Positions 5,984 to 27,952 of a stretch of 30,057 nucleotides of DNA are shown here, one piece after another; the stretch's first letter is position 1, and each line of letters begins with the position of its first letter. Below the pieces are notes generated by a model that ran no database searches, was not told where the DNA came from, and was given only the letters and a program-made list of their open reading frames with translations. Position numbers and translations under genes: made by a program. Source of the stretch: a virus. The DNA is taken from positions 1-30,057 of the IMG/VR virus record IMGVR_UViG_3300033153_000928; one strand, written 5' to 3'.

Positions 5984-6025
5984 TTAAATTAGTGTTATTG
6001 CTCTGGAGTGCTCTGGGGGGATAAT

Positions 6026-6058
6026 ATGGGAGAAGCGCCCAATCAACGATGTTTTTAA
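6026..6058 (+). CDS. Possible 10-codon leader ORF before the coat gene
   Basis: ATG 6026 opens MGEAPNQRCF and stops at TAA 6056-6058; GGGGGG lies five to ten bases upstream as a strong ribosome site. The ORF runs through the left arm (6033-6040) and most of the loop of the terminator hairpin, so a translating ribosome would block the hairpin. This is the geometry of a translation-controlled attenuator. It is short and could be fortuitous. Confidence 0.25.
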   Translation: MGEAPNQRCF

Positions 6059-6077
6059 TCGCTGGGGCGCTTTTTTT
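6033..6077 (+). terminator. Intrinsic terminator in the coat gene leader
   Basis: AAGCGCCC (6033-6040) pairs perfectly with GGGCGCTT (6065-6072), and seven T (6071-6077) follow. The 24-base loop contains a small inner pairing, CGAT with ATCG. The terminator follows the scaffold gene and the second promoter-like element and precedes the coat gene start by about 40 bases. It may separate the early head genes from the coat gene or act as an attenuator. Confidence 0.7.
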
Positions 6078-6117
6078 AATTGTAAGCCTTGGCACAATCA
6101 AACAAGAGGCTTACAAA

Positions 6118-7281
6118 ATGGCTAACACAATCACAGATTTAGTACCTGATCTGCTTGAGGCACTTGATACAGTGTCCCACGAGCTCACAGGTATGATCCC
6201 CTCAGTATCATCTGATATGACCTTCCAGCGCGCTGCCGTTGGGCAAACCGTACGTTCCCCCGTTGCTCCTGCCGCTGCTGCTGGTGACATCGCCCCAGGC
6301 GTTACTCCACCTGACGATGGCAACCAAGTAATCGGCAACAAAGACATGACAATTGCCAAATCACGGCGGGTTCCTATCCGCTGGAATGGTGAACAGTCTC
6401 TTGGTATTAATAATTCAGGTGGTGTTACTCGTTCCCGCATTATGCAAGACCAGTTTGCACAGGCAATGCGTACCCTCACAAACGAGGTTGAGTCTGATCT
6501 TACAGCCCTACACGTTAACGCTTCACGCGCCTATGGTACAGTAGGAACTATCCCATTTACTACTGCTGGTGATTTCACGGACGCTTCTTTTGTGGCGAAA
6601 ATCCTTAAAGACAACGGTGCACCTCTTACTGGTAACCGTCTGGTGCTTAATACCACCTCTTCAGCTACCATGATCGGTAAGCAATCCCGCATGGACATCG
6701 CAGGGCAAGACAGTATTTTGCGTCAAGGTGTATTGCTTGACACTGCTGGCTTCTCAATCCGTGAGTCTGCCCAGATTGCGACAGCAGGTACAAACGTTGT
6801 TACAGGTGTTGTAACAGCAACAGGTGTTGAGCCAATTGGTGAAACTACTATCAATATGACCACAGCCGCAGGTGCTGGTATTATTGCCGTCGCTGGTGAT
6901 ATTATCACCTTCGCTGGTGATACCAACAAATATGTTATCGCTGCCCCTGTGACCATCGGAGCTTCAACAACTGGCGATGTTGTTATTGCAGAGCCTGGTC
7001 TTTTAGCCGCGACTGCTGGCGCTGAGGCTGTGACAGGTTATGCCGCAACTGCTCGTAATATGGCATTTTCCCCCTCTGCCATTGTTCTTGCAACTCGCGC
7101 CCCTGCCCTCCCTGAAGAGGGTGATTTGGCAACTGACCGTCAAATTATCACAGATCCTCGTAGTGGCCTGTCTTTTGAGGTTTCAAAGTATATGCAATAT
7201 CGTCAAGTCCAGTACGAGATTGCCCTTGCATGGGGTGTCAAAGTGGTCAAAGATGAGCACCTTGCTCTGTTGATCGGCTAA
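6118..7281 (+). CDS. Major capsid protein, P22 coat-like
   Basis: The start is ATG 6118, with AGAGG about nine bases upstream; the longer frame from 6049 would translate through the terminator and is rejected. The 387-aa product has the features of P22 gp5-type coat proteins with the HK97 fold: an N-terminal arm with SSDMTFQRAAVGQTVRSPV, the segment VPIRWNGEQSLGI, and a beta-rich insertion (about 221-312) carrying AGDIITFAGDTNKYVI, a motif that recurs in the insertion domain of this family. The C-terminal YMQYRQVQYEIALAWGVKVV closes the axial domain. It is the main shell protein. Lack of a neighbouring protease agrees with P22-type assembly. Confidence 0.9.
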   Translation: MANTITDLVPDLLEALDTVSHELTGMIPSVSSDMTFQRAAVGQTVRSPVAPAAAAGDIAPGVTPPDDGNQVIGNKDMTIAKSRRVPIRWNGEQSLGINNSGGVTRSRIMQDQFAQAMRTLTNEVESDLTALHVNASRAYGTVGTIPFTTAGDFTDASFVAKILKDNGAPLTGNRLVLNTTSSATMIGKQSRMDIAGQDSILRQGVLLDTAGFSIRESAQIATAGTNVVTGVVTATGVEPIGETTINMTTAAGAGIIAVAGDIITFAGDTNKYVIAAPVTIGASTTGDVVIAEPGLLAATAGAEAVTGYAATARNMAFSPSAIVLATRAPALPEEGDLATDRQIITDPRSGLSFEVSKYMQYRQVQYEIALAWGVKVVKDEHLALLIG

Positions 7282-7307
7282 CGGGTAGTTTTTTTGTTTA
7301 TTATTAA

Positions 7308-7331
7308 TTGTGGGGGCTTCGGCTCCCACAA
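7308..7331 (+). other. UUCG-capped 10-bp hairpin after the coat gene
   Basis: TTGTGGGGGC (7308-7317) and GCTCCCACAA (7322-7331) form a 10-bp stem with one G-U pair around a TTCG tetraloop, an exceptionally stable RNA fold. No T-tract follows on either strand; a T-run lies before the stem instead. It may protect the coat mRNA 3' end or partly reduce transcription into the connector genes. Confidence 0.6.
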
Positions 7332-7347
7332 CTTTAGAGGTGGGAAG

Positions 7348-7467
7348 ATGGGAACATGCGAAACAGTTAAAATTGTAGCGAAGAATAAACTCGGCTACAT
7401 TATCGTGAACAAGGCAGACATGAAAAAAGCTGACAAGTTGTTCAAAGAAAAAAAGAGTGTTGAGTAA
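7348..7467 (+). CDS. Small conserved-type phage protein (39 aa) after the coat gene
   Basis: ATG 7348 follows an excellent ribosome site (AGAGGTGGGAAG), and the stop overlaps the next start (TAATG at 7467), so this short frame is almost certainly translated. The product reads MGTCETVKIVAKNKLGY, IIVNKADMKKADK, then LFKEKKSVE. Short proteins with a 'Gly-Tyr-x-x-Val/Ile-Asn' core often lie between coat and connector genes in phages; their function is not established. It has no cysteine pair, membrane segment or catalytic motif. Confidence 0.7.
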   Translation: MGTCETVKIVAKNKLGYIIVNKADMKKADKLFKEKKSVE

Positions 7468-7973
7468 TGGCTTTAACCATCGAGGATGGCTCTGTGGTAT
7501 CTGGTGCGGACTCTTACGTGTCCCGTGCTGATTATATCGCTTATGCTTTATCTGTTGGTGTTGTTGTCGCTGACACAGACGCGGCTGACATTGAACTTGT
7601 AAAGGCTGCGGGCTTTATAGGATCTTATGAGCCGTCTTTGAAGGGGCGCTTAACAGACAGAGCCCAGCCTTTATCATATCCACGCTATGATCTTGTTTTG
7701 GAGGGTTTTAGTTGGGGTAGTGATGAAATCCCTAGACAGGTTATTACTTGTCAAATGGCCTTTGCTTTAGATGTAAACGAGGGGATTGATTTGTATAACC
7801 CTCCTGTGAACGAGAACCGTGCCACCAGCAAAGAAAAAGTAGACGGGGCTGTTGAAGTTGAATATTTCGGATCTGGCGCTAACACTAAAGTGAATAGAAC
7901 GAGTAGCGCCCAGGCGTTATTGAATACATTGCTTTATCGCTCTGGGTTGTCAATCGTTTTGGAGCGTGCATAA
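7467..7973 (+). CDS. Head-tail connector (adaptor), DnaT-like family
   Basis: The 168-aa protein begins ALTIEDGSVVSGADSYVS, the characteristic start of phage proteins labelled 'DnaT-like ssDNA-binding' in databases, which are encoded right after the coat gene and act as adaptors under the portal (function inferred from position and helical bundle fold). The motif RAQPLSYPRYDLVLEGFSW and then IPRQVITCQMAFALDVN fits the family. The length is normal. It overlaps both neighbours (TAATG at each end), forming one coupled connector cluster with the next three genes. Confidence 0.72.
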   Translation: MALTIEDGSVVSGADSYVSRADYIAYALSVGVVVADTDAADIELVKAAGFIGSYEPSLKGRLTDRAQPLSYPRYDLVLEGFSWGSDEIPRQVITCQMAFALDVNEGIDLYNPPVNENRATSKEKVDGAVEVEYFGSGANTKVNRTSSAQALLNTLLYRSGLSIVLERA

Positions 7974-8326
7974 TGGGTTTTTATGAGAACATGGCGGCAA
8001 CAGCCTCATCTCTTATTACCAAATTTGGAAAGCCAATAACTATTAGCAGGACAGTCGGCGAAACAGACGACCCCGTGACTGGAGTCCACGTAACAGGGAC
8101 TACCACAGAATATACGCCTAATGGTATTTTTCAAACCATAAAGGCGAGCTTGATTGACGGTACACGCATCAAATTTGGGGATAAAATGTTTGTAATTGAT
8201 AACAGCTTTACTCCTCTTTTGACAGACGTTGTGCCTATTAGCGGGTCTGATTGGGCTATCGAAGAAATAACCCCAGTTGAGCCAGCAAACCTAGCTTTAG
8301 TTTACTTTGTCAGGATAAGGAAATAA
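7973..8326 (+). CDS. Head-tail connector (stopper/closure-like)
   Basis: The 117-aa, beta-rich protein occupies the second connector position. It shows the pattern of head-closure or stopper proteins: an N-terminal helix (MGFYENMAATASSLITKFG), 'PITISR' and a mid-protein KFGDKMFVIDNSFTPLLTDV, typical of the small barrel seen in SPP1 gp16-like proteins, although similarity is weak. The role would be to hold DNA in the filled head and dock the tail. Start and stop overlap the neighbours (TAATG). Confidence 0.6.
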   Translation: MGFYENMAATASSLITKFGKPITISRTVGETDDPVTGVHVTGTTTEYTPNGIFQTIKASLIDGTRIKFGDKMFVIDNSFTPLLTDVVPISGSDWAIEEITPVEPANLALVYFVRIRK

Positions 8327-8700
8327 TGGCAACTATCCCCATGGATAAACTAGCTGAAAGTTTGAACGCGACCCTTGATGAAACATGCAGGGCTATCAAA
8401 ATTGCGCTGTTTAACGGTGTAATACGTGACACCCGTGTTGCTACTGGACGGCTTAGGGGAAACTGGCAGACTAATACTGGATCCCCTAAAGATAGGGAGA
8501 TTGACCGCCAAGACAAAACACCTCAAGGTGGCGATGGTGGGTCAGCTCAAGAAGAGGTAAAGAACACAGTCAAGGGTGACACAGTTGATTACTTGACAAA
8601 CAACCTACCATATGCAGAAGTGTTCAACGAGAAGGACGGCATGATCGCCAAGAATGTTGCAAGGATGGATAGGAATGTGCGTGAGGCCGTCAAGAAATGA
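8326..8700 (+). CDS. HK97 gp10-like neck / tail completion protein
   Basis: The 124-aa protein shows the HK97 gp10-like hallmarks: a helical start, then VIRDTRVATGRLRGNWQTN (the 'D-T-G-x-L-x-x-S/N-W' motif) and later DYLTNNLPYAEVFNE ('N-x-x-P-Y-A-x-x-x-E'). Members sit at the head-tail joint or aid tail completion. The usual final glycine-rich 'P-x-G-M' segment is present as KDGMIAKNVARM. Its end overlaps the next gene by 4 nt (ATGA), as expected for the neck-terminator pair. Confidence 0.75.
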   Translation: MATIPMDKLAESLNATLDETCRAIKIALFNGVIRDTRVATGRLRGNWQTNTGSPKDREIDRQDKTPQGGDGGSAQEEVKNTVKGDTVDYLTNNLPYAEVFNEKDGMIAKNVARMDRNVREAVKK

Positions 8701-10289: not shown

Positions 10290-12451
10290 TGGCTACAGAC
10301 GTAACCAAATTAGTCTTAGCTGTTGATAGTCGGCAGGTAAAAAAGGCCACAAAAAACGTAGATGAGTTAGGTAAAAAAGGCGTTGCTGTAAAGAAAACCT
10401 TTGTTACTGCTACCTCAGCTATTGCGGCTTTTGCTGGTGCCTTGGCACTAGGGGCCGCGTTCAAGTCTGTTCTCTCTGCGACAATCGCACAAGAGGAAGC
10501 TGTCGCCCAGTTAAACGCCACTTTGAGATCTACAGGGCGTTACACCCCAGAGTTGTCGGCCTCAATGGTCGAGTATGCCGCAAGCCTCCAAAAAATAACA
10601 ACGTTTGGTGATGAGGCCACGATGTCGGCTCAAGCCATGTTGCTTACCTTCACCAGAATTGGAGGAGATGAGTTTACAAGGGCGCAAAAGGCTGTCCTTG
10701 ATGTTGCCACAGCCATGAAAACAGATTTAAAGTCTGCAGCGATCCAAGTTGGTAAGGCTTTAAATGATCCCAAAGTTGGACTTACTGCGTTATCCCGTTC
10801 GGGTATAACATTTTCAGAAACACAAAAAGATTTAATCAAATCACTTGTCGATACAGGGAAGGAAGCCGAGGCCCAGGCTGTTATCTTATCCGAGTTAGAA
10901 AAGCAATTCGGAGGATCGGCAGAGGCAGCGCGTAACACCCTTGGTGGTTCGTTGAAGGCGCTTGGAAACGCTTTCGGTGATTTGACTGAGGGTAAGGCTG
11001 GTGGTAGTGGAATTAAGGGTGCGACTGAGGCCATTGAAGAACTCACAGCAAAACTTAGCGACCAGCAGACCATTGATAACGCCTGTGTCCTTATAAACGG
11101 TCGGATAACTGGGTTCGGGCAAGTAACAGAAGCAATCTCCCAAACAGTAGAGTTCACGCCATGGTTAAGTGACTCTTTCGCTGCCTCAATATTCGGGGTT
11201 GCTGCAGATGATGTCGAGAGGTTAGAGGATAAAGTCCAAGACTTAAAGGTTGTGGCAGAAGGTAATTTCTGGGGGTTTAGTGGGAAGGCTAAAGAGGAGC
11301 TTGCTATTGCCCAGAAGCAACTAGATATGGCCTACCAGATCCGCGCGATGGGCCAGAAGCCAACCGAAAGGAATAAGCCTTTGGCTGTCCCAGTCGTTTC
11401 TGGAGCTGACACCATAACAACAGAAACACAAAAAGCTGCAGCTGCAGCCAAGAAGCTCGGTGAAGAATGGGACGCAGTTTATACCAGACTAAATGAGCAA
11501 GTGATATTAGGTGGCCTGTCTGGCATGGAGCTTGAATTTGCAAAAATCAATATTGAAGCCGCTAAGATGGTTGACACCTACGGCGAAGAGTATGAGGGTG
11601 TTATAGATAATTGGGTTCGCGCGATGCGCGGTTTCGTTTATGAGGCAGAGTCTGCAGATATCGCAGCAAAAAAACTCGCGGACAGTATAAAGAAATCAGA
11701 AGAAAGCGCGGCATCTATTGAAAAAGTAGAAATGGCAATGGAGGAGCTCACGTTTGCCACAATGACAGCCTCAGGGCAAGAAGAGTCCCTAATCATCGCT
11801 ACCCGTGACAGGCTAAATGCCATGGCTCGGCAAATGGCTATGCTCGGTGAAATAAGCGAATCAACAGCAGATGCAATGCAAAAGGTTTTTGGTGAAAAAG
11901 CACAAGCAGACATCAATAAGATAGGTGATACATCAAAGACGTTCATGGAACAGTTAAGAGATGGGTCGGCTGAATGGGCTAAAAGTTACGCAAGCACAAT
12001 GAATGAAATGCTGTGGAGCTCAGAAACAACTTTTGATGGAATACTTGAAAGCTTCGGTAAAATGATAACCGAGTTGTTGTTGCAGTCGGCAATTCTTGAT
12101 TTGGTCGGGAACGGGAAGGATGGCGGTAGCGGTACTTCTGGGCTATTATCTCAGCTTGGTAACTTCGCTGTCTCGCAGTTTTCGACGGCTTCTGCTGCTG
12201 GCGGTTACGACATCCCTTCAGGTGTAAACCCAATGACTCAACTTCACGAAGAGGAAATGGTTTTGCCCGCAAAATATGCAAACGCAATTCGCGATATGAG
12301 TGGAGGAGGTGGGGCAACACCACAGACAGCCCCAAAGAATGATGTTAGAATTATAAATGTTCAGGATATGTCACAGGTCGGGGATTATTTGGGGACGACA
12401 GACGGCGAGCAGGTTGTCATGAATATTTTACAGAAAAACGGGATTCAATAA
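10289..12451 (+). CDS. Tape measure protein
   Basis: The 720-aa, Ala-rich helical protein sets tail length; at roughly 0.15 nm per residue it predicts a tail near 110 nm. Residues 41-58 form a hydrophobic segment (ATSAIAAFAGALALGAAF), common near the N-terminus of these proteins. The prophage tail-length domain (about 65-240) includes TFGDEATMSAQAMLLTFTRI and ALNDPKVGLTALSRSGITF. The C-terminal lambda-like motif SGVNPMTQLHEEEMVLPAKY (in 638-670) is diagnostic. No lysozyme or peptidase domain is visible within it. It starts on the chaperone stop codon and abuts the next gene without spacing. Confidence 0.93.
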   Translation: MATDVTKLVLAVDSRQVKKATKNVDELGKKGVAVKKTFVTATSAIAAFAGALALGAAFKSVLSATIAQEEAVAQLNATLRSTGRYTPELSASMVEYAASLQKITTFGDEATMSAQAMLLTFTRIGGDEFTRAQKAVLDVATAMKTDLKSAAIQVGKALNDPKVGLTALSRSGITFSETQKDLIKSLVDTGKEAEAQAVILSELEKQFGGSAEAARNTLGGSLKALGNAFGDLTEGKAGGSGIKGATEAIEELTAKLSDQQTIDNACVLINGRITGFGQVTEAISQTVEFTPWLSDSFAASIFGVAADDVERLEDKVQDLKVVAEGNFWGFSGKAKEELAIAQKQLDMAYQIRAMGQKPTERNKPLAVPVVSGADTITTETQKAAAAAKKLGEEWDAVYTRLNEQVILGGLSGMELEFAKINIEAAKMVDTYGEEYEGVIDNWVRAMRGFVYEAESADIAAKKLADSIKKSEESAASIEKVEMAMEELTFATMTASGQEESLIIATRDRLNAMARQMAMLGEISESTADAMQKVFGEKAQADINKIGDTSKTFMEQLRDGSAEWAKSYASTMNEMLWSSETTFDGILESFGKMITELLLQSAILDLVGNGKDGGSGTSGLLSQLGNFAVSQFSTASAAGGYDIPSGVNPMTQLHEEEMVLPAKYANAIRDMSGGGGATPQTAPKNDVRIINVQDMSQVGDYLGTTDGEQVVMNILQKNGIQ

Positions 12452-16923: not shown

Positions 16924-19359
16924 ATGGTTTGGATGGCTTTGTTTTGGTTTGTTGTGAAGGTCGTATTGTCTTTTGCGATATCTTACGCACTCGCTCCGAA
17001 GGCAGGTACTCCAGACGGAGCGGTTGCGGCTGGTCTTGATGCCTTCACTGTCCCCACGGCTATTGTGGGTCGAGAGATACCTGTTCTTTTCGGCACTAAA
17101 TTATTGTCTGGCCCTAACTGTGTATGGTCTGGGGGGCTAAAGATTGTGGCCATCGAGGAAACGATTGACGGTGGCCTGTTGCATTCTGATTCTCATTACA
17201 CAATAGCCCATGAATATAGTTTAGGTATGCACCTTATTTTAGCCCACGAGATTGATTCTATATTTCAAATAGAAGTTGATGAAAAAGTGGTGTGGGCTGG
17301 CTCAACAACTGGTGGAGAAATCTATGTAAACGCTAGGGATATCTTTGGAGGTGTCAAGTCTGGTGGCGGGATACAAGGCTATGTAGATTTTGAGAATGGT
17401 AACGCTTCACAGACTCAAAACGCATACCTCCAAAGCAAACTAGGGACAGATATACCAGCATTCAGAAACGTTGCTGCGGTAGTCCTAAAAACTGTTTACC
17501 TAGGGACAAACCCGAACCTTTTGCCATGGGCTTTTTGGTGTAAAAAAATACCTAATAGCTGGTATCCTGCCAAGGCAGAGATAAGCGGTGAGGCAAACGC
17601 CGCCCATATTATATATGAGACAATCACCAATAAAAGCTGGGGGATGAGGTTCAACGCAGAGGATATTGACGAGGCAGCGTTTACAGCCGTTGCTGACACG
17701 TTGTTCACTGAAGACTTTGGGATATCTGTTTTATGGGATCATTCATCAAGGCTAGAAGATTTCTTGCTTGAGATCCTAAAACATATTGATGCTTCTCTTT
17801 ATATTTCAAGAACGACAGGCCAGTTTACCCTAAAGCTAATACGCGAAGATTATGACGTCGAAACAATCCCAGTTTTTGACGAGTCAAATATAACCAAGGT
17901 TTCAAGATTCAAAAGGCGTGGGCCAACAGATTTAATAAATTCTGTTTCTGTTAAGTATTGGGATGCCTCGACTGGAAAACAAGGCTCAACAAGCGTACAC
18001 GATGCCGCTCTTGTCGCAACAATGGGTGGAACTGTAACCCAAGCAATCGACTATACAGGTGTCACTACTCACGCCTTGGCGGCTAAACTTGCAATGAGAG
18101 ATTTACGCGCCCTCTCGTCACCTCTTGCCGACTGTGAATTGTATGTCAACAGAGAAGGGGCAACGCTGAATATTGGTGATACGTTTATTATGTCATGGCC
18201 TAGGTATGGCATAGACGAAATAGTTATGAGGATAACTGGTGTTGAGTTCGGAGAGTTTGGTAATAGCGCGATTAGGGTAGAGTGCATAGAAGACTTTTAT
18301 GGTGTTGATGAGGCAATCTATTCCACCCCGCCTAGTAGTTTGTGGGTAAGCCCAGTCAATGACCCTGCCCCTTGCCCTGTCCATTCTGCTATTGAAGCCC
18401 CTTTTTACACGCTGTCAAGGGAAACAGAACTTTCCCCCACAGAGATTGCAGCACTTGACCCCTCTGGGGGGTTTGCCTGTGTGGCTGGAGCAAAGCCAAC
18501 CAGCGACGCCATAGACTCTGAGGCATGGTTTAATGACGGCACAGGATACGCGCGGAACACTGACACGACCTTTACCCCGAGAGGGATATTAACCTCAGAT
18601 ATAGGGATACTTGACACCGTATTGAGTCTGACTCTTGATTCTTTGTCTAGCTCAATTATCCTAGGGTCATGGGCAATAATTGATAGCGAGATTGTTAGAG
18701 TTGACGCGGTTGGAGCAACAACAATAACCGTTGGCAGAGGGTGCCTTGACACCGTCCCTGTTGAGCATCTAAACACAGCAAACGTGCTATTCGTCCAAGG
18801 CAACTATGCAATGCTAAACAACCTTTTAACTGGCAACGTTTACGCGAAGCTATTACCACGGACAGGCAAAGGAAATTTAGCGATAGCAGACGCACCAGAA
18901 CAAATAATCACGATAAACGACAGGATCAACAGACCATACCCACCTGCACAGCTTTTATTAAATAGCATGCAAGAGCCAGTAGATATAACTGGGACGATAA
19001 TTCATGGATGGGTACACAGGGACAGGTTGCAGCAAGTTGACTCTGTTATTTTAGACACATCAAGTGCTGGGGTTGGCCCAGAAGTAGGCACAACGTATAG
19101 TTACGATTTCCGTCGTGCAGATACAGACGCTTTGTTGTACAATGCTTCTGGAATCACTGGCTTAACAGCAACAACAACAAGTTTCGATATTGGTTACGAA
19201 GGGCTGGTGAAGTATCATTTATGGTCTGTCCGAGATGGTGCTGAAAGCTGGCAACAGCATGAGCGAGAGTTTTTTTACTTCCGTGCTGAAATGAGGACGA
19301 CTGAAGACGGTACAGCCAGAGTCACAGAAGACGGAATATATAGAATCGTGGAGCTATAA
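16924..19359 (+). CDS. Central tail hub / host-specificity protein (lambda J-like)
   Basis: The 811-aa protein has a hydrophobic N-terminal helix (residues 1-23, WMALFWFVVKVVLSFAISYA), then VGREIPVLFGTKLLSGPNCV, the usual opening of phage hub proteins of the Phage-tail_3 class. The hub core is seen in TNKSWGMRFNAEDIDEAAF, SRLEDFLLEILKHIDASLYI and SVSVKYWD, which correspond to the trimeric tube-closing domains. The C-terminal 250 residues hold Fn3/Ig-like strands for fibre attachment and end with a short repeat, MRTTEDGTARVTEDGIYRIV. TGAGGTTATTTTA supplies the ribosome site. It should plug the tail and trigger DNA release. Confidence 0.88.
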   Translation: MVWMALFWFVVKVVLSFAISYALAPKAGTPDGAVAAGLDAFTVPTAIVGREIPVLFGTKLLSGPNCVWSGGLKIVAIEETIDGGLLHSDSHYTIAHEYSLGMHLILAHEIDSIFQIEVDEKVVWAGSTTGGEIYVNARDIFGGVKSGGGIQGYVDFENGNASQTQNAYLQSKLGTDIPAFRNVAAVVLKTVYLGTNPNLLPWAFWCKKIPNSWYPAKAEISGEANAAHIIYETITNKSWGMRFNAEDIDEAAFTAVADTLFTEDFGISVLWDHSSRLEDFLLEILKHIDASLYISRTTGQFTLKLIREDYDVETIPVFDESNITKVSRFKRRGPTDLINSVSVKYWDASTGKQGSTSVHDAALVATMGGTVTQAIDYTGVTTHALAAKLAMRDLRALSSPLADCELYVNREGATLNIGDTFIMSWPRYGIDEIVMRITGVEFGEFGNSAIRVECIEDFYGVDEAIYSTPPSSLWVSPVNDPAPCPVHSAIEAPFYTLSRETELSPTEIAALDPSGGFACVAGAKPTSDAIDSEAWFNDGTGYARNTDTTFTPRGILTSDIGILDTVLSLTLDSLSSSIILGSWAIIDSEIVRVDAVGATTITVGRGCLDTVPVEHLNTANVLFVQGNYAMLNNLLTGNVYAKLLPRTGKGNLAIADAPEQIITINDRINRPYPPAQLLLNSMQEPVDITGTIIHGWVHRDRLQQVDSVILDTSSAGVGPEVGTTYSYDFRRADTDALLYNASGITGLTATTTSFDIGYEGLVKYHLWSVRDGAESWQQHEREFFYFRAEMRTTEDGTARVTEDGIYRIVEL

Positions 19360-19361
19360 AA

Positions 19362-19736
19362 ATGACCTTAAAAATTAGTGAATTGACCGAAGAAACAACC
19401 ATCGGAGACGGTGACTACCTTGAGATGTCTAAAGATGTCGGGTCTAGCGTATACGAAAGCAAGAAGGTGAAGGTTAATACCACGTTGCGTGAAGATTGGA
19501 CGCTGATGAAGAATGACACAGGCGACTCTCTCCCTAGCGGTACTGTTGTTGTCGGTGTATCTGTGACAGGTGAGGCTTTTGATATTAATAAAGCTATTGC
19601 AACATCTGCAGAAACTATTGGGGCTTACGCAGTTGTCACAAGCGCAATAGCAAACGGGGCAGAGGGGTGGGCCGCAACAAGAGGTATTGTTAATGGGGTT
19701 GACACATCAGGATTCAGCGCAATGGACGCACTGTAA
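19362..19736 (+). CDS. Tail fibre N-terminal part, ending at an in-frame TAA
   Basis: The 124-aa frame starts MTLKISELTEETTIGDGDYL, a common attachment module of phage fibres, followed by LMKNDTGDSLPSGTVVVGVS and the 'RGIVNGVDTSGFSAMDAL' segment. In similar fibre modules I recall, this segment continues 'D-x-L-Y-V-S'; here TAA (19734-19736) stands exactly where Tyr would be and GTG-AGT (Val-Ser) follows in the same frame. It is therefore probably the first piece of a roughly 1040-aa fibre rather than an independent protein. GGAG eight bases upstream supports ATG 19362. Confidence 0.7.
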   Translation: MTLKISELTEETTIGDGDYLEMSKDVGSSVYESKKVKVNTTLREDWTLMKNDTGDSLPSGTVVVGVSVTGEAFDINKAIATSAETIGAYAVVTSAIANGAEGWAATRGIVNGVDTSGFSAMDAL

Positions 19737-22481
19737 GTGAGTGTTATCTCAGGCACTGACGCTTCTATTGCTTCAGGTGATCCTACAGGGTTTATAAACA
19801 ACGATGGGATTACAATAGATTACGATAGTACAGCAAGAACAATAACCCTAACTGGAGATTTGAGATATTCATGGCGTGGGCAGGTTAAAGAGCTTACATC
19901 TCCATGGGTTTCTGGCGCACATAGTGCAACTCTAGATTCTACATACTTTTTGCACTCTACAAATGGTGATGATTTTGTGTGGTCTACGTCAATTTGGGGA
20001 TTCTCTGACGTGCATGTTTCTTTCGTGTGGCATGGGACAACAGATAAATACTCAATAAGAGAGACGCATGGTTTAATGCCTTGGCAAGTTCACGAAGAAT
20101 TTCACGGCACGGTAGGGTCATATAAGGTTTCTGGCGGTACTCTTGGTGGCTATGTCCTAGCTTCGACAACAGTATCTGAAAGGAGGCCGACAGTATCAGC
20201 AACAGTAGTAAAAGACGAGGATATTATAACATCAGTGGCAGAGCTTACGTCTTCTCTATACACTAAGGGGTATCTTACAGGCTCCGGTGTGCAAGCGTTT
20301 ACAGTTGAGACAGCCGATATTGTACCTTTGAGCGGTGATACCCCATACTATAACCAGTTTGTTTCTCCAAATTGGGTTCAAACACTAATGTCAAACAATA
20401 CCTATATGTCTGTGTGGTTGGTAGCAGTCCCTGCATCAAGTGACACTGGTTCGCAAAAATACAGGTACATTTGGGTGCAAGGGCAAACCGCAGGCTCATT
20501 ACTAGGCCAACAAGCTTTATTCCCTTCAGACCTATCTTTCGGAAACCTAACGAGCCTCTTTACTGAATTCGTGTTCTGCGCCAAGATAATACTTAGGTAC
20601 ACGTCTGCAAATTGGCAAATCGAGGATGTTATTGCTTTAACAGGGACTAGAAGTAGTTTTACTGGTGCTCCTGCTGGGGTGTTCCTGTCGGTTGTCTCCA
20701 CAGATGACACATTAGCTGGAGACGGGACGGCTGGCAATCCTCTTGGGGTGGTGAACCCATTAACAACTGAAGACCTTGCTAATGTAGAACTCCTTGATGA
20801 TGCCATAAAAAAGGAGATTGACAAGATCGTAGCTAGTGCGAACGCTATTGATGTATTTATCTATGACACTTCTAGGGATACAGACGGCGGTGCGTGGGTT
20901 GATGCTCAATTAGAGAAGCATAGAGTGCTCTTGTTTACAGCCACCTCTACAGGCATTAAGGCATACGATGCAACAGACGATGACTTGCCTGAAGTTACAT
21001 TATTAGAGATTACCTTATCTGGCATCAGCTCAATATCTGCACTAAACGGTATCTTGTTTGTAGGCACTAGCGCAGGATGTAAAGAATATAATATCACTGA
21101 CGGGATGTTTCTAAAGCAATCATACGCTACAACGACTACGCCAGCAATTGTAAATGGTGTAGTCAATGACGTAGCAATGACCGTCCTACCAAACGCTCCT
21201 ATCGACCCAGCCACAGGTATGCAGATTCCAATTATAGCTGTTGCTACTGATGGTGGTGTCTCTGTAATCACAGATGGTGGTGATGTTTGGGATATCACGA
21301 GAGGAGCGGGTACTGAGACTTGCGATACAATAGATTTTATTGGAGAAAGATTGCAGTATGGTAATACTGGTGGCATACCTTGGTGGAATAGGCTTGATAT
21401 ACCAACATCGGATTTAGTAGGAGAACCACCTGCTGGTGTTACACGATACACAACCAGCACAATTCCAGCCATTCTACAATATGCTGCTGATTTGAGTGGT
21501 GATTACTCTGGCAGTTATAAAGGACTCACCCACCTAATCGAAGACCCAGACAATCCTGAAAATGGTATGGTTGGTTATACAACATCCTCTTATTTCTCTG
21601 GTCTTATGCAAGGAGATATCGAGCTATGTTTATCTGGAGAAGATCTCGCGGATAAATCAGTATCCGCTACTTCGGTATCAGGTACAGCTACCCATTCTCC
21701 AGTTTCTACTGGAGCTGAGTTAGAGGCCACCACAGCAACTTCCGATATAACCGCCTCAGTTACGACAGGGGGCGAGTGTGAAGGGTGGGAATTTGTTTCT
21801 AGTGTTTGGGAGTTTAGAGAAAAGATTGTTGATTGGGTAGGTGTATCAGAATCAGGAGGAACTATTACCATAGTAAGTGGTACAGTATTCACCCTACTTA
21901 AATACACAAATGGTGCTGGAGCCTCCACCAGTCAGATTGAATTTATCTGTAACTTTGAAAAACCTCTATTCCAAGAAGATGCAAAATGTACTTTCGGTGG
22001 ATCCTCTGATTCTATGGTTTCTCTGGACTACGACGAAGTAACAGGTAAGCTTGAACTTCTTACTGGAGATAGCAAAGATACCTTCTCTGGAGCATTAAGA
22101 GTCGCCTCTGAAGCAATTACAGTAGGGACACCAACTTGTATCTCAGCAAGTGGAGGAGATGTCGCTCACGGTGGAACTACAGGTATCAAGCTCTACAGCC
22201 CAGCAGAGAATCTTAGGACTGAGCTTAAAAGAGTTGATGACCAGAACAAGTATTTTGGGTCTAAACCTGTAGCCTTTAAATTTGTAGGTGATACAGTTGA
22301 AACTGATTTTATATTACCTCACGGATGGGAGCCTACTGAGATGGTGTATGAGGCTGGGTTACTTGTTATAGAAGGAGCAGCAAATGAGTATGTCTTTACT
22401 AATGACGGCTTTATAGAGGGTGTCTCTTTTAATGTGGCCCCTGCTGCTGTTGATGTTGTAATCTTTGCAGTGAGGAAATAA
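19737..22481 (+). CDS. Tail fibre, main part (914 aa), same frame after TAA
   Basis: The frame begins at GTG directly after the stop and lacks its own ribosome site, so it is made by readthrough, reinitiation, or not at all unless the stop is an error. The first 330 residues match a fibre domain I recognise (GITIDYDSTARTITLTGDLR, IRETHGLMPWQVHEEFHGTV). Residues 365-560 look propeller-like, with VFIYDTSRDTDGGAWVDAQ and NDVAMTVLPNAPIDPATGMQ. The middle 600-750 is Ser/Thr-rich with AT-richer codons. The C-terminus (FVGDTVETDFILPHGWEPTE onward) is a tip-like domain. It probably contacts the host surface. Confidence 0.75.
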   Translation: MSVISGTDASIASGDPTGFINNDGITIDYDSTARTITLTGDLRYSWRGQVKELTSPWVSGAHSATLDSTYFLHSTNGDDFVWSTSIWGFSDVHVSFVWHGTTDKYSIRETHGLMPWQVHEEFHGTVGSYKVSGGTLGGYVLASTTVSERRPTVSATVVKDEDIITSVAELTSSLYTKGYLTGSGVQAFTVETADIVPLSGDTPYYNQFVSPNWVQTLMSNNTYMSVWLVAVPASSDTGSQKYRYIWVQGQTAGSLLGQQALFPSDLSFGNLTSLFTEFVFCAKIILRYTSANWQIEDVIALTGTRSSFTGAPAGVFLSVVSTDDTLAGDGTAGNPLGVVNPLTTEDLANVELLDDAIKKEIDKIVASANAIDVFIYDTSRDTDGGAWVDAQLEKHRVLLFTATSTGIKAYDATDDDLPEVTLLEITLSGISSISALNGILFVGTSAGCKEYNITDGMFLKQSYATTTTPAIVNGVVNDVAMTVLPNAPIDPATGMQIPIIAVATDGGVSVITDGGDVWDITRGAGTETCDTIDFIGERLQYGNTGGIPWWNRLDIPTSDLVGEPPAGVTRYTTSTIPAILQYAADLSGDYSGSYKGLTHLIEDPDNPENGMVGYTTSSYFSGLMQGDIELCLSGEDLADKSVSATSVSGTATHSPVSTGAELEATTATSDITASVTTGGECEGWEFVSSVWEFREKIVDWVGVSESGGTITIVSGTVFTLLKYTNGAGASTSQIEFICNFEKPLFQEDAKCTFGGSSDSMVSLDYDEVTGKLELLTGDSKDTFSGALRVASEAITVGTPTCISASGGDVAHGGTTGIKLYSPAENLRTELKRVDDQNKYFGSKPVAFKFVGDTVETDFILPHGWEPTEMVYEAGLLVIEGAANEYVFTNDGFIEGVSFNVAPAAVDVVIFAVRK

Positions 22482-23052: not shown

Positions 23053-23420
23053 TGATGACAAATTTGGAAACGATTGACGCCATAAGTAAAGCTTTAACAA
23101 GCCACCAATTCACGATTACACAAGCTACAGATTGGCCGATGTTTTTGGCTATGGGTGGGTTGTTGTTTTTAGTATTTGCGGGGGCGTGGGGAGTTATTGT
23201 TAGCCTTCTAGTTTATGGGTTCAAAGATATAAAATCGAGGATATCAGCCCAGCGCGCCGAAGATGTTGGTCGTTGTTCCGATTGCAAGTCAGCAATTTGG
23301 GATCACATAGATGGCCCGATGTGGACAGCGATCAAAGAACATTGCTCATCGTGGTCTAAGTCAGAGCAAGAGTGTTTCAGGGATAGGGTGAAAAGTGGTG
23401 TTGAAGGGTGTTCACCATGA
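23052..23420 (+). CDS. One-span membrane protein with Cys-rich tail (possible holin)
   Basis: The 122-aa protein has one clear membrane helix at about residues 30-57 (PMFLAMGGLLFLVFAGAWGV then IVSLLVYGF), a basic stretch after it (KDIKSRISAQR) and a tail with five cysteines (C75, C78, C98, C108, C120) including a CSDC pair. It is next to the DUF5675 gene, which suggests a lysis or inner-membrane function, but one-span holins are usually smaller and lack such a tail. The double ATG (23052 and 23055) follows AAGGGG. Its end overlaps the next gene by 4 nt. Confidence 0.55.
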   Translation: MMTNLETIDAISKALTSHQFTITQATDWPMFLAMGGLLFLVFAGAWGVIVSLLVYGFKDIKSRISAQRAEDVGRCSDCKSAIWDHIDGPMWTAIKEHCSSWSKSEQECFRDRVKSGVEGCSP

Positions 23421-23815
23421 AAATATTAGAATTGATCAGGCTCGAAGAAACCGAGCAAGGCACAATCGGTGTCTTAAAGATCAATAAAACCGTTTTCTGC
23501 TTCACACTTGAACCACCAGACTTAGAAAACCGTGTTAACAAGTCAAGCATTCCAGCACAACAATACACTGTAAAGCCCTACTCATCCCAGAACTATCCAG
23601 ACATTTATGAAATAATAAATGTTCCTGATAGGTCGTATGTTCTTTTCCATCCTGGTAATACTGTTGATAATACCGCTGGTTGTATTTTACTAGGTGAATC
23701 TTTAGGTAAGTTGCAAGGTGATAGGGCTGTCTTGAATAGCGGCAAAACGTTTAATAAGTTCCGCAATATTTTACGTAATGAAGACCATCATTTAACAATA
23801 ACAGAGGTGTATTAA
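23417..23815 (+). CDS. DUF5675 protein, candidate peptidoglycan-active enzyme
   Basis: The start is ATG 23417 (ATGA overlap with the preceding gene), with AAGGGTG upstream; an earlier GTG has no advantage. The 132-aa product matches DUF5675: ETEQGTIGVLKINKTVFCFT, LEPP, SSIPAQQYTVKPY, and VLFHPGNTVDNTAGCILLGE. The H78-P-G-N and G88-C89-I arrangement recalls the His/Cys pattern of L,D-transpeptidase-like folds, so a peptidoglycan-directed activity is plausible but unproven for this family. It is the only candidate for a lytic enzyme in the window, flanked by small membrane proteins. Confidence 0.7.
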   Translation: MKILELIRLEETEQGTIGVLKINKTVFCFTLEPPDLENRVNKSSIPAQQYTVKPYSSQNYPDIYEIINVPDRSYVLFHPGNTVDNTAGCILLGESLGKLQGDRAVLNSGKTFNKFRNILRNEDHHLTITEVY

Positions 23816-24183: not shown

Positions 24184-24317
24184 TGCCTAGAAAACTCGAT
24201 AAAGAACTCAAAAAACTTAAAATTACAGAAGAGGATGCTATTACTATCCTTCGCAAGGTTAAGTTTAAGCGCAAAGCCACTAAGTCTAACCGTGGTTACG
24301 CAGCAGGTAAACGTTAA
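24183..24317 (+). CDS. Small basic protein (44 aa)
   Basis: ATG 24183 begins on the preceding stop and the TAA overlaps the ATG of the 1211-aa gene (24317), so the frame fills the space exactly. The peptide MPRKLDKELKKLKITEEDAI followed by TILRKVKFKRKATK and a Gly/Lys/Arg end is very basic. Function is unknown; it may bind nucleic acid or simply couple translation into the long downstream gene. No ribosome site stands out, in line with coupled reinitiation. Confidence 0.55.
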   Translation: MPRKLDKELKKLKITEEDAITILRKVKFKRKATKSNRGYAAGKR

Positions 24318-27300
24318 TGGCTGATATTACATCTACAGGTTCAGGTAATTGGACATCTACTACACCAGACGCACCGTGGCCTAGTGGGGTTGTGCCGACT
24401 TCAAGCGATGATGTCACAGTCTCAGCAACACATACTGTCACGCTCGATGCGACTGGGTGTGCCTGTAATACGTTAACAATATCAGGTAAAATAACTGCCT
24501 CCACAGTCGCTTCGACTGATATCACAGCCGAAGCGCAAATCTCCATTGAGGCAACGACTGGGGAATACGATGTTGATATCTCGTCCGATGTAGCTGTTGA
24601 ACACTCAATTATATTGAATAAAGGGTTAGCAACGCAACATGAATGTTTTTATGCCAAACAACACTCCCAAACATTTAACTTAGTAGGGTTCTATAGGAAG
24701 CGTTGGACTGTTCTTACAAGTCCAGTTTCTATAGGTGCGACATCATGTGATGTCGGTGCTGTCGATGGGTGGCAGGTGGGTGACACTTTGGCTTTTGGTT
24801 CGACGACATTTAGTGATGATACAGCCTGTGAGACTATTGTAATAACAGATATTACTGGGTTAACTGTGTCATGGTCTGGTGGTATAACATACGGCTATGC
24901 CGATGAAGGTTACATAGGAAATATGACAAGTAATCTTACTATCCATTCCTATGATGAAACGACATTTGCAAATACAGCACAAGTATATATGAACTGTTGG
25001 ACTGAGGTTGTGACGAAAACTAAGAATTTTGAAAACGTTGCATTCAGGGGGCTGGGGTATGGTGGGAATGGTGCGCTTGAAGCACAGGTTGGCTTGGCGT
25101 TAAGTATAAAAAACGTGAATGGGTGTTCTTTCTTCCAGTGTTTCGGTAATAGTATGCGCTACAAAGATGGGTCTCCAACATTGAACATGGACGATTGTGT
25201 TTTTTGGACAGACAAAAAATATACAACAATCGGGTCATACAACACACATCTTAGTATTCATGCTCCATACAACTCTCCTGTGACGAACTTGTTGATTATG
25301 AGGGCAGGCTACTCAGCAATGCAAAGCTCTAGGACAGGAGGAGTTCTCCACATGGCTGACTCCGTTATATGTGGGGTGACACCTGGGTCAGCAGGGGCCG
25401 CTAATGCTATTTTTGAGGACTGCGTTTTTGCATCATGGAAGGCTAGTTTTTTAGGCCCAGCAACAAACATAACATTTGACGGTTGTGATCTATATACAAA
25501 GTTCGGACATCCGGCGACAGGGAGATTGCTAGACCCTAGGAACTATATTATAGGCAATTTGTTAAATTGCTTACTCCAATCAGGTTTTAAATTATTGCAA
25601 ACATTCTGGACTGAATCTCCTACGGTAATAGGCCCACCTGATAGTTCAGTTATAAAACTGGAAAACATTAACGGAGATACAGCAGAGCATGAGATATACA
25701 AGAACCAAAGCGAAGACGAACCACTATTTAAAAGAAATAACTCTGTAATACATAGGTCAACGTCATCCTTGGAAGTAGCCCCTAGATTAGTTGATAAGGA
25801 CTACCCAAAAGAGCAATCAATTTTATGTGCTGCTGGGGCAACAATAAGAATTGTCGGATATGCTAGAGTTGATTCAGATTTTTATAACAGTGGTGATTGG
25901 TACGCGCCAACAGTAGAACTCTCTGGATTGGGCGAGGCACCTGTTGTCCATATTGTTACCCCTTCGGCAGAGGACGCCTGGGAGCAGTATGACATTTCTA
26001 TAACTAACAACGGTGCCTCCGATGGCGAATTTACGTTAACGAGGCAAGTCGTCGCAAAAACTGTTGTGGTTGGTCTAGTCTATTTTGACGGTGTGCCTGA
26101 CGCTCCATTCATTACAAAATGTCGGCATTATGGCTTTGTCATTGACGAGGCAAACCCAACTAGAAAAGTTGACTCGTTAATATCAGCGAATGAAGCTACA
26201 GCAATTTCTTATACTGGCGTTACAATCACAGACGGAACCAAGACAATCACAATTCCTGGTGGAACAGCAGATACAGCACAAAAATTTTATGATTATATGA
26301 TTGCTAATGCCTGCGAAAACCTAGATACAGAGATTCCCTTAACAAGAGCTGGTTCTCTTTTTTCTTTAGTTACTGGGTGGACTGTTGTAGAACCAGCTTA
26401 CGACGATATGACCTGGGGTGGTGGTACAATTCAGTTTGATGACCTTGGTGCAAAATCAGGAAGCTTCGATAGTAACATTTTTGATTTCACTTCTGTAGGG
26501 ACATATGATTTCGGCTCTGCTTCTTTCGCTGGAGATATCGAGTTAATTAATACTTCTGGTGGGGCTGTAACTGTTGCCTTACCAACAGGAGTTTCATATA
26601 CAAACACTGGGCCAAATATCACAGTGACAACCCCAGTCAATTATGCAACTATTGATATTACTGGTGCTGATGCAGGGTCAAGGATTCAGCTCTATGACAC
26701 AGCTAATTCAATAGAGCTTTACAACGGTACACCATCTTTTCCATACCAGTTTAGTGAAGAATATTCTATTGATCGAACAATACGAATACGAGTAATGTAT
26801 CAAGATGGTGATACAGCCAGAATGTTTATTGATCAGGCAATTGGAGAAATTACAGAATTAAGCCCTGCTTTATCATATTTAGTTTCTCAAGTTGACGATG
26901 ATGTTTATAATACTAATGCTCTGGATGGGTCTATTATTACAGACATAACTATCACTGATGGTACGTTACTTGTTGAGGTTGATACTGGCACGGTTACATG
27001 GCCTAAATTGTATGCCTATGAAACATATTGGTTATTTACTGAGGAAGGTATACAAGATGAAGGGCGGTTCGCTGTGGCTGTTGATACCGCTAATTACAAG
27101 TGGTATGACTTCAAGCTTAAAAACATAACATCTCCAGAAGTTCCACTTGTAGTTTCTGGTGGTTATGGAGTTGATGGTGATACCGGAACATCATTGAGCA
27201 TGATTGATCAAGATGGCGGGTCAATCATCATGGCCCCAGATCATGTTGTCCCCTATTCCACAGGGGCATCCGTAACTGAGCAGATCGTTCAAAATGGTAT

Positions 27301-27952
27301 GACAGCTCAAGGATATAATTCACCAGCTTCTGATGCTATTTTAACAAGGCAGGAGGTCGATGCTAATTCGACTCAGTTAACAGCAATTAAAGCCAAAACA
27401 GATTTAATTCCAGCAGATCCTGCAACTGAGGCTAATGTGGATGACACTCAAAGCACATTAGTTTTAATTAAACAAGACACAGATAACATCACCGATGACC
27501 CAGCAACCGAAACAACAGTATTAGCAATCAAGGATAAATCAGACCTAATCCCCACAGATCCAGCTACAGAATCAAACATTGATGCTACGCAGATTACTTT
27601 GGATTTGGTTAAGCTTGACACCGACAATATCAGCTCAGATCCAGCGACTGAGACAACTGTTTTAGCCGTTAAGGCCAAGACAGACTTGATACCTAATGAT
27701 CCCGCAACTGATAGTAATGTTGACGGTGTGCAAACAACAGTAGATTCGATATTGACAACAGACACAATCCTCCTAAAGACATTGAACAACTACCGCGAGA
27801 TCAAAAAGGTTGGAGATGTATGGACTTTGTTTGTGTATGATGATGATAATACTACGCCAATCCTATCTAAAGAGTTGAAAGATATTAACGGTAATAATAT
27901 TACAGATTTAGCAGCAGGGGCGTTAGCACAGGAGATTAAGTCAAGTGTTTAA
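24317..27952 (+). CDS. Large beta-helical tail protein (1211 aa) with C-terminal repeats
   Basis: The N-terminal domain (about 1-80) resembles G8-type modules: GSGNWTSTTPDAPWPSGVVP, DDVTVSATHTVTLD, CNTLTISGKI. Residues 200-420 have the short-strand, Asn/Gly-rich pattern of a right-handed beta-helix (NLTIHSYDETTF, TLNMDDCVFW, NITFDGCDLY). A middle region (about 850-990) contains TWPKLYAYETYWLFTEEGIQ and MAPDHVVPYSTGASVTEQIV, a motif pair I recall from other phage tail proteins. From residue 1024, 47-residue repeats follow. It is a probable second fibre or spike, or a receptor-binding/polysaccharide-recognition protein; no catalytic residues could be assigned. Confidence 0.75.
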   Translation: MADITSTGSGNWTSTTPDAPWPSGVVPTSSDDVTVSATHTVTLDATGCACNTLTISGKITASTVASTDITAEAQISIEATTGEYDVDISSDVAVEHSIILNKGLATQHECFYAKQHSQTFNLVGFYRKRWTVLTSPVSIGATSCDVGAVDGWQVGDTLAFGSTTFSDDTACETIVITDITGLTVSWSGGITYGYADEGYIGNMTSNLTIHSYDETTFANTAQVYMNCWTEVVTKTKNFENVAFRGLGYGGNGALEAQVGLALSIKNVNGCSFFQCFGNSMRYKDGSPTLNMDDCVFWTDKKYTTIGSYNTHLSIHAPYNSPVTNLLIMRAGYSAMQSSRTGGVLHMADSVICGVTPGSAGAANAIFEDCVFASWKASFLGPATNITFDGCDLYTKFGHPATGRLLDPRNYIIGNLLNCLLQSGFKLLQTFWTESPTVIGPPDSSVIKLENINGDTAEHEIYKNQSEDEPLFKRNNSVIHRSTSSLEVAPRLVDKDYPKEQSILCAAGATIRIVGYARVDSDFYNSGDWYAPTVELSGLGEAPVVHIVTPSAEDAWEQYDISITNNGASDGEFTLTRQVVAKTVVVGLVYFDGVPDAPFITKCRHYGFVIDEANPTRKVDSLISANEATAISYTGVTITDGTKTITIPGGTADTAQKFYDYMIANACENLDTEIPLTRAGSLFSLVTGWTVVEPAYDDMTWGGGTIQFDDLGAKSGSFDSNIFDFTSVGTYDFGSASFAGDIELINTSGGAVTVALPTGVSYTNTGPNITVTTPVNYATIDITGADAGSRIQLYDTANSIELYNGTPSFPYQFSEEYSIDRTIRIRVMYQDGDTARMFIDQAIGEITELSPALSYLVSQVDDDVYNTNALDGSIITDITITDGTLLVEVDTGTVTWPKLYAYETYWLFTEEGIQDEGRFAVAVDTANYKWYDFKLKNITSPEVPLVVSGGYGVDGDTGTSLSMIDQDGGSIIMAPDHVVPYSTGASVTEQIVQNGMTAQGYNSPASDAILTRQEVDANSTQLTAIKAKTDLIPADPATEANVDDTQSTLVLIKQDTDNITDDPATETTVLAIKDKSDLIPTDPATESNIDATQITLDLVKLDTDNISSDPATETTVLAVKAKTDLIPNDPATDSNVDGVQTTVDSILTTDTILLKTLNNYREIKKVGDVWTLFVYDDDNTTPILSKELKDINGNNITDLAAGALAQEIKSSV
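27386..27748 (+). repeat. 141-bp (47-aa) tandem repeats inside the tail protein
   Basis: Units start at 27386, 27527 and 27668, a constant spacing of 141 bases. Each full unit has two halves: (I/V)K-x-K-(T/S)-D-L-I-P-x-D-P-A-T, then (I/V)K-x-D-T-D-N-I-x-x-D-P-A-T. The third copy is a half unit. The protein repeats much better than the DNA, so the copies are old and under selection. A fibrous shaft or trimer register is likely. Confidence 0.85.

Follow-up and report, generated by a model that had tools for sequence, protein, structure and literature searches.

The fibre locus and its neighbouring genes

The window analysed here, the whole of a 30,057-base metagenome contig recorded as an uncultured virus, carries tail genes that are about 31-44% identical to those of siphoviruses of the Queuovirinae/Mesyanzhinovviridae kind. 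On its + strand lies a fibre coding unit that is interrupted by a stop codon and comprises the following features.

19362..22481, + strand: interrupted fibre coding unit (N-terminal segment, partial module A, TAA, module B, C-terminal part)
19362-19736, + strand: ORF1, ATG start, 124 aa, ending in TAA
19362..19490, + strand: N-terminal fibre segment of ORF1 (MTLKISELTEE...), like the gene directly 3' of the tail protein in the loci L051 and L056
19491..19733, + strand: module A, truncated, beta-tulip/decoration-protein-like, covering approximately profile positions 8-89 of 130
19734..19736, + strand: joint codon TAA, at the column where module A has Tyr/Trp
19737-22481, + strand: ORF2, GTG start, 914 aa, zero spacing after ORF1
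19737..19739, + strand: GTG, the sole ORF2 start that leaves module B whole, with a weak Shine-Dalgarno match (-3.0 kcal/mol)
19737..20756, + strand: linker and complete module B (HGLMPWQVHEEFH family), with 36 loci in IMG/VR and a confidently predicted fold
20757..22481, + strand: C-terminal part of ORF2, for which no relative was found

Some neighbouring genes were also characterized. At 16924-19359, a single ORF of 811 aa corresponds to what in named relatives are separate chaperone-like CDSs and a tail protein; in one of these (L008) the separate CDSs lie at 6001-6234, 6231-6437 and 6421-8592. A 1211-aa ORF at 24317-27952, with a DUF5675 gene (23408-23815) upstream of it, shows a weak match to the G8 domain (22.4 bits against a curated cut-off of 22.9) and is a possible tail spike. 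On the - strand, an ORF at 28809-29075 matches the DUF968/HNH endonuclease families (Pfam 2e-16, PHROG 1e-17).

The junction between ORF1 and ORF2

As an earlier note on this DNA had recorded with exact coordinates, ORF1 and ORF2 are parted only by the TAA, the break reading ...SAMDAL*VSVIS.... Zero spacing makes a shared frame automatic, so that the common frame of the two ORFs does not count as a second observation. Zero-spaced stop/start pairs are also found at 12451/12452 and 23815/23816, three of the 25 listed junctions being of such kind, and the spacing by itself is therefore unremarkable. The starts of the two other pairs are preceded by stronger ribosome sites (-4.1 and -7.1). Regarding the GTG of ORF2, the earlier note had seen no ribosome site; a weak match does exist, and yet its -3.0 kcal/mol lies near the background median of -2.3 calculated over all ATG, GTG and TTG triplets of the + strand, compared to -5.5 to -8.4 for most genes of the window, although a few other listed starts are as weak. 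Termination-reinitiation calls for a stop and a start that overlap or lie very close together, as they do here (spacing 0), and is helped by a good ribosome site at the second start, not a strict condition, which the GTG lacks.

The same region bears on the possibility of an assembly or sequencing fault, or of a minority variant chosen by the assembler, which we consider unlikely. The sequence belongs to an uncultured virus record, searches of IMG/VR, which may leave out the nearest records, gave no second copy of the joint, and fibre genes vary within populations, all of which would fit such an explanation. Against it, the present sequence contains no repeat able to collapse the segment, no composition step of the sort that marks a chimera was detected, composition and codon usage being even across the joint, and the frame is kept on either side.

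The N-terminal segment and module A of ORF1

Residues 1-35 of ORF1 match locus L051 with 51% identity (tblastn, E=0.003), and the corresponding protein of L056, which begins MAKKISELTQ, shows a weak match (E=0.29). The ORF1-like frame of L051 stays open for at least 361 aa, up to the end of the contig, whereas that of L056 has only 105 aa; short proteins with an ORF1-like start at the same place occur in L056 and in L050, where the protein has 127 aa. Translated searches of named phages returned no relatives of ORF1.

The remainder of ORF1 (residues 44-124) is occupied by module A. With a profile built without the window, residues 44-120 match positions 8-85 of 130 with 41.7 bits, and ORF1 ends at profile position 85-89. 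The end of this profile was reached by all 21 confident full-domain matches in the fetched loci, and two more matches, in L014 and L015 (identical in sequence), are weak and partial. Module A was also found in named phages, namely in a tail fibre protein of Pseudomonas phage Rollin and in several Synechococcus phages. The complete module A of locus L042 was modelled with eight strands (pLDDT 86.6), and the best Foldseek matches of the model were beta-tulip decoration or head-fibre base proteins, at modest values (E about 1e-3, TM about 0.5-0.6). Mapped onto this model, the stop lies within strand 6 (residues 88-91), beyond which strands 112-116 and 123-128 are absent, so that the module A of ORF1 would lack its last two and a half strands. 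The beta-tulip fold has been described previously (PMC7602432), and at these modest scores the predicted fold of the complete module comes closest to that of gp8.5 of phi29, HFTV1 and TW1; unlike these decoration or head-fibre base proteins, module A is located inside long fibre proteins, and in the window it is incomplete.

Comparison across the break

L002 and L003, the two closest relatives, carry module A followed directly by module B within a single ORF. Both align with the window up to the stop and resume at residue 2 of ORF2, with a gap between corresponding to about 41-42 codons that are absent from the window. The same one-piece layout was obtained whenever A was found directly 5' of B: the continuity of homologues, which the earlier note had proposed to check, extends without interruption across the joint in 8 of 8 non-identical environmental loci, in agreement with its view of a single fibre-type coding unit. 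Between the stop column and the [DE]PTG-type motif in module B there are 53-89 codons in these eight relatives and 15 in the window, stop included. ORF2 begins at the linker to module B, and the last 40 or so residues of module A are absent. Two marks of a split gene were found here, homologues in one frame (8/8) and a segment of the relatives missing at the break; a third, an unbroken parent or sister strain, was looked for without success. What goes beyond chance is this homology to one-piece fibres, which reaches both sides of the stop with about 41-42 codons gone, and not the spacing. The missing segment was not found elsewhere in the window, where it was looked for with an invertible or shuffled fibre in mind.

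An imperfect inverted repeat of 26 nt (73% identity) surrounds module B, at 19687-19712 and 20741-20766. A segment invertible through the 11-base exact inverted repeat in these arms was considered and rejected, the repeat being at chance level (1 observed versus 1.28 in shuffles).

The comparison also allows the origin of the stop codon to be evaluated. From the residue expected after D-x-L, which it gave as Tyr, the earlier note had considered that the TAA might have come from TAT or TAC by a one-base change. Tyr does occupy this column in 5 of the 8 relatives, but the other three have Trp, and a single base change is insufficient, because at least 38 codons beyond that residue, about 40 in all, are gone as well and the sequence continues from the linker; the gap and the stop are accounted for together if a deletion or recombination left a joint that reads TAA. 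For a point mutation to be kept as the cause, the Tyr-to-TAA change would have to have occurred in a fibre whose module A was already shortened in the lineage. The frequent Tyr codon at the stop column is in its favour, but it would take two independent events at one residue, and module A was not seen shortened anywhere else, which makes this explanation very improbable.

That two forms of the fibre are made by programmed readthrough, a possibility listed in the earlier note, or by bypass is in our judgement barely credible. The frame, open over a long distance before and after the stop, would accommodate it. Nevertheless, TAA is generally the least leaky stop codon, no unusual RNA structure for readthrough or bypass is present at the joint (RNA fold z=-1.2), and none of the eight relatives has a stop codon in this column. 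Moreover, the missing segment of module A means that the readthrough product would still carry an incomplete, broken domain and would not be a family-like fibre. A recoded genetic code, which that note held unlikely, is not indicated, since TAA, TAG and TGA all serve at other gene ends in the window.

Module B and the start of ORF2

Module B, comprising the first 340 residues of ORF2 and containing HGLMPWQVHEEFH, has related loci whose contigs span 4-236 kb and in which the segment upstream varies widely; the first set of these showed 43-59% identity to the window. Its fold was confidently predicted for residues ~15-310 of ORF2 (pLDDT 84.5), and no solved structure matched the model convincingly. 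Translated searches of named phages gave no match to ORF2, and for module B none even at E=5; no occurrence of module B was confirmed in bacterial genomes, and a search with the module A profile of prophages in bacterial genomes with a related tail protein returned no fibre with module A or B.

In three loci, module B lies close to the beginning of an ORF of its own that opens shortly after a stop. In L038 and L042 the module B ORF starts 1-4 codons past an in-frame stop. In L033 (3236-3922), a 228-aa ORF ends in TAG and is followed, with zero spacing and in frame, by an ORF starting with TTG that contains module B, a layout as in the window; the TTG has a good ribosome site by eye, and this joint is possibly a natural stop-start fibre pair.

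These layouts bring in a different explanation, namely that recombination produced a working gene pair, one gene for a short first protein and the other for the distal fibre protein, ORF2 being translated by termination-reinitiation at the GTG. Reinitiation is favoured by very short gene distances (PMC10666635), and this reading is consistent with the other zero-spaced pairs of the window, with L033, L038 and L042, and with the complete module B and the intact 914 codons of ORF2. We nonetheless regard it as unlikely: ORF1 ends within a conserved domain, unlike every other module A seen, the GTG has a weak Shine-Dalgarno match, ORF2 would start without an attachment segment, and in L033 and L038 the upstream protein is complete and the start region better. 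It is decidedly unlikely that the TAA-GTG joint yields stub and distal fibre in a fixed proportion, the distal part joining the virion via another protein. Reinitiation and assembly error, both listed in the earlier note, are treated here as minor rivals.

Proposed origin of the split fibre gene

Starting from the observed positions, the homology to either side of the stop, the segment that is missing and the one-piece layout in relatives, we propose that the fibre gene was once a single frame and was probably split by a deletion or illegitimate recombination, with the stub being made and the distal part little or not at all. The ancestor would have been a siphovirus fibre gene with N-terminal segment, module A, linker, module B and C-terminal part in one frame. 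One event may then have removed about 41-42 codons, taking away two and a half strands at the end of module A together with the beginning of the linker, and the joint happened to read TAA, so that the same event would have given rise to both the gap and the stop. The protein made would be a 124-aa stub with an unfinished domain, the 914-aa distal part being little or not made, and the outcome in the sampled phage would be loss of the fibre or a variant fibre, with a presumed effect on the virion.

Some observations speak against a deletion. The relatives of module A are distant, with 25-38% identity to the window where aligned, module B can start its own ORF, and short ORF1-like proteins exist in L056 and L050. 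The ancestral sequence is unobserved because no close relative of the phage was found: in IMG/VR, peptide patterns and the exact DNA flanking the joint retrieved none for ORF1 or the flanks, in searches from which the records closest to the window may be missing, and in named phages there was none for ORF1, ORF2 or module B, by DNA or protein. All 914 codons of ORF2 have remained open, and their usage is normal, which suggests that the event was recent or that some expression continues.

Previous studies offer parallels to the proposed deletion. In kayvirus 812K1/420, a 77-bp deletion in orf119, a gene of the tail fibre complex, created a premature stop and two ORFs (PMC6445280). As in the window, a deletion-made stop divides a fibre gene in two, and 812K1/420 is viable; it differs in that it is an isolated host-range mutant with a known parent and a deletion of 77 bp, whereas in the window the loss amounts to about 41-42 codons, is deduced from distant homologues and keeps the frame. 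The stf fibre gene of the laboratory strain of lambda was likewise disrupted by mutation (PMC10721106; PMC2762979), a parallel drawn by analogy, and there the lesion is a frameshift, in contrast to the deletion joint with TAA proposed here. The lambda stf case illustrates that fibre loss can be selected, and fibre-less phages are viable (PMC2762979; PMC10721106). Since the ORF at 24317-27952 is possibly a second receptor-binding protein, losing the split fibre need not be lethal for the phage of the window.

Taken as a whole, the evidence points to a deletion-split fibre gene of the sort already known in other phages, and to no new translation trick. Comparison at the level of domains can tell whether a stop codon interrupting a metagenomic fibre gene marks a deletion joint, a point mutation or programmed readthrough. 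The analysis also brought to light a widespread fibre module, module B, which occurs in 36 environmental phage loci but was absent from all named phage records that were searched. Should reinitiation turn out to be real, the joint would represent a simple route by which phages split their fibres into two proteins.
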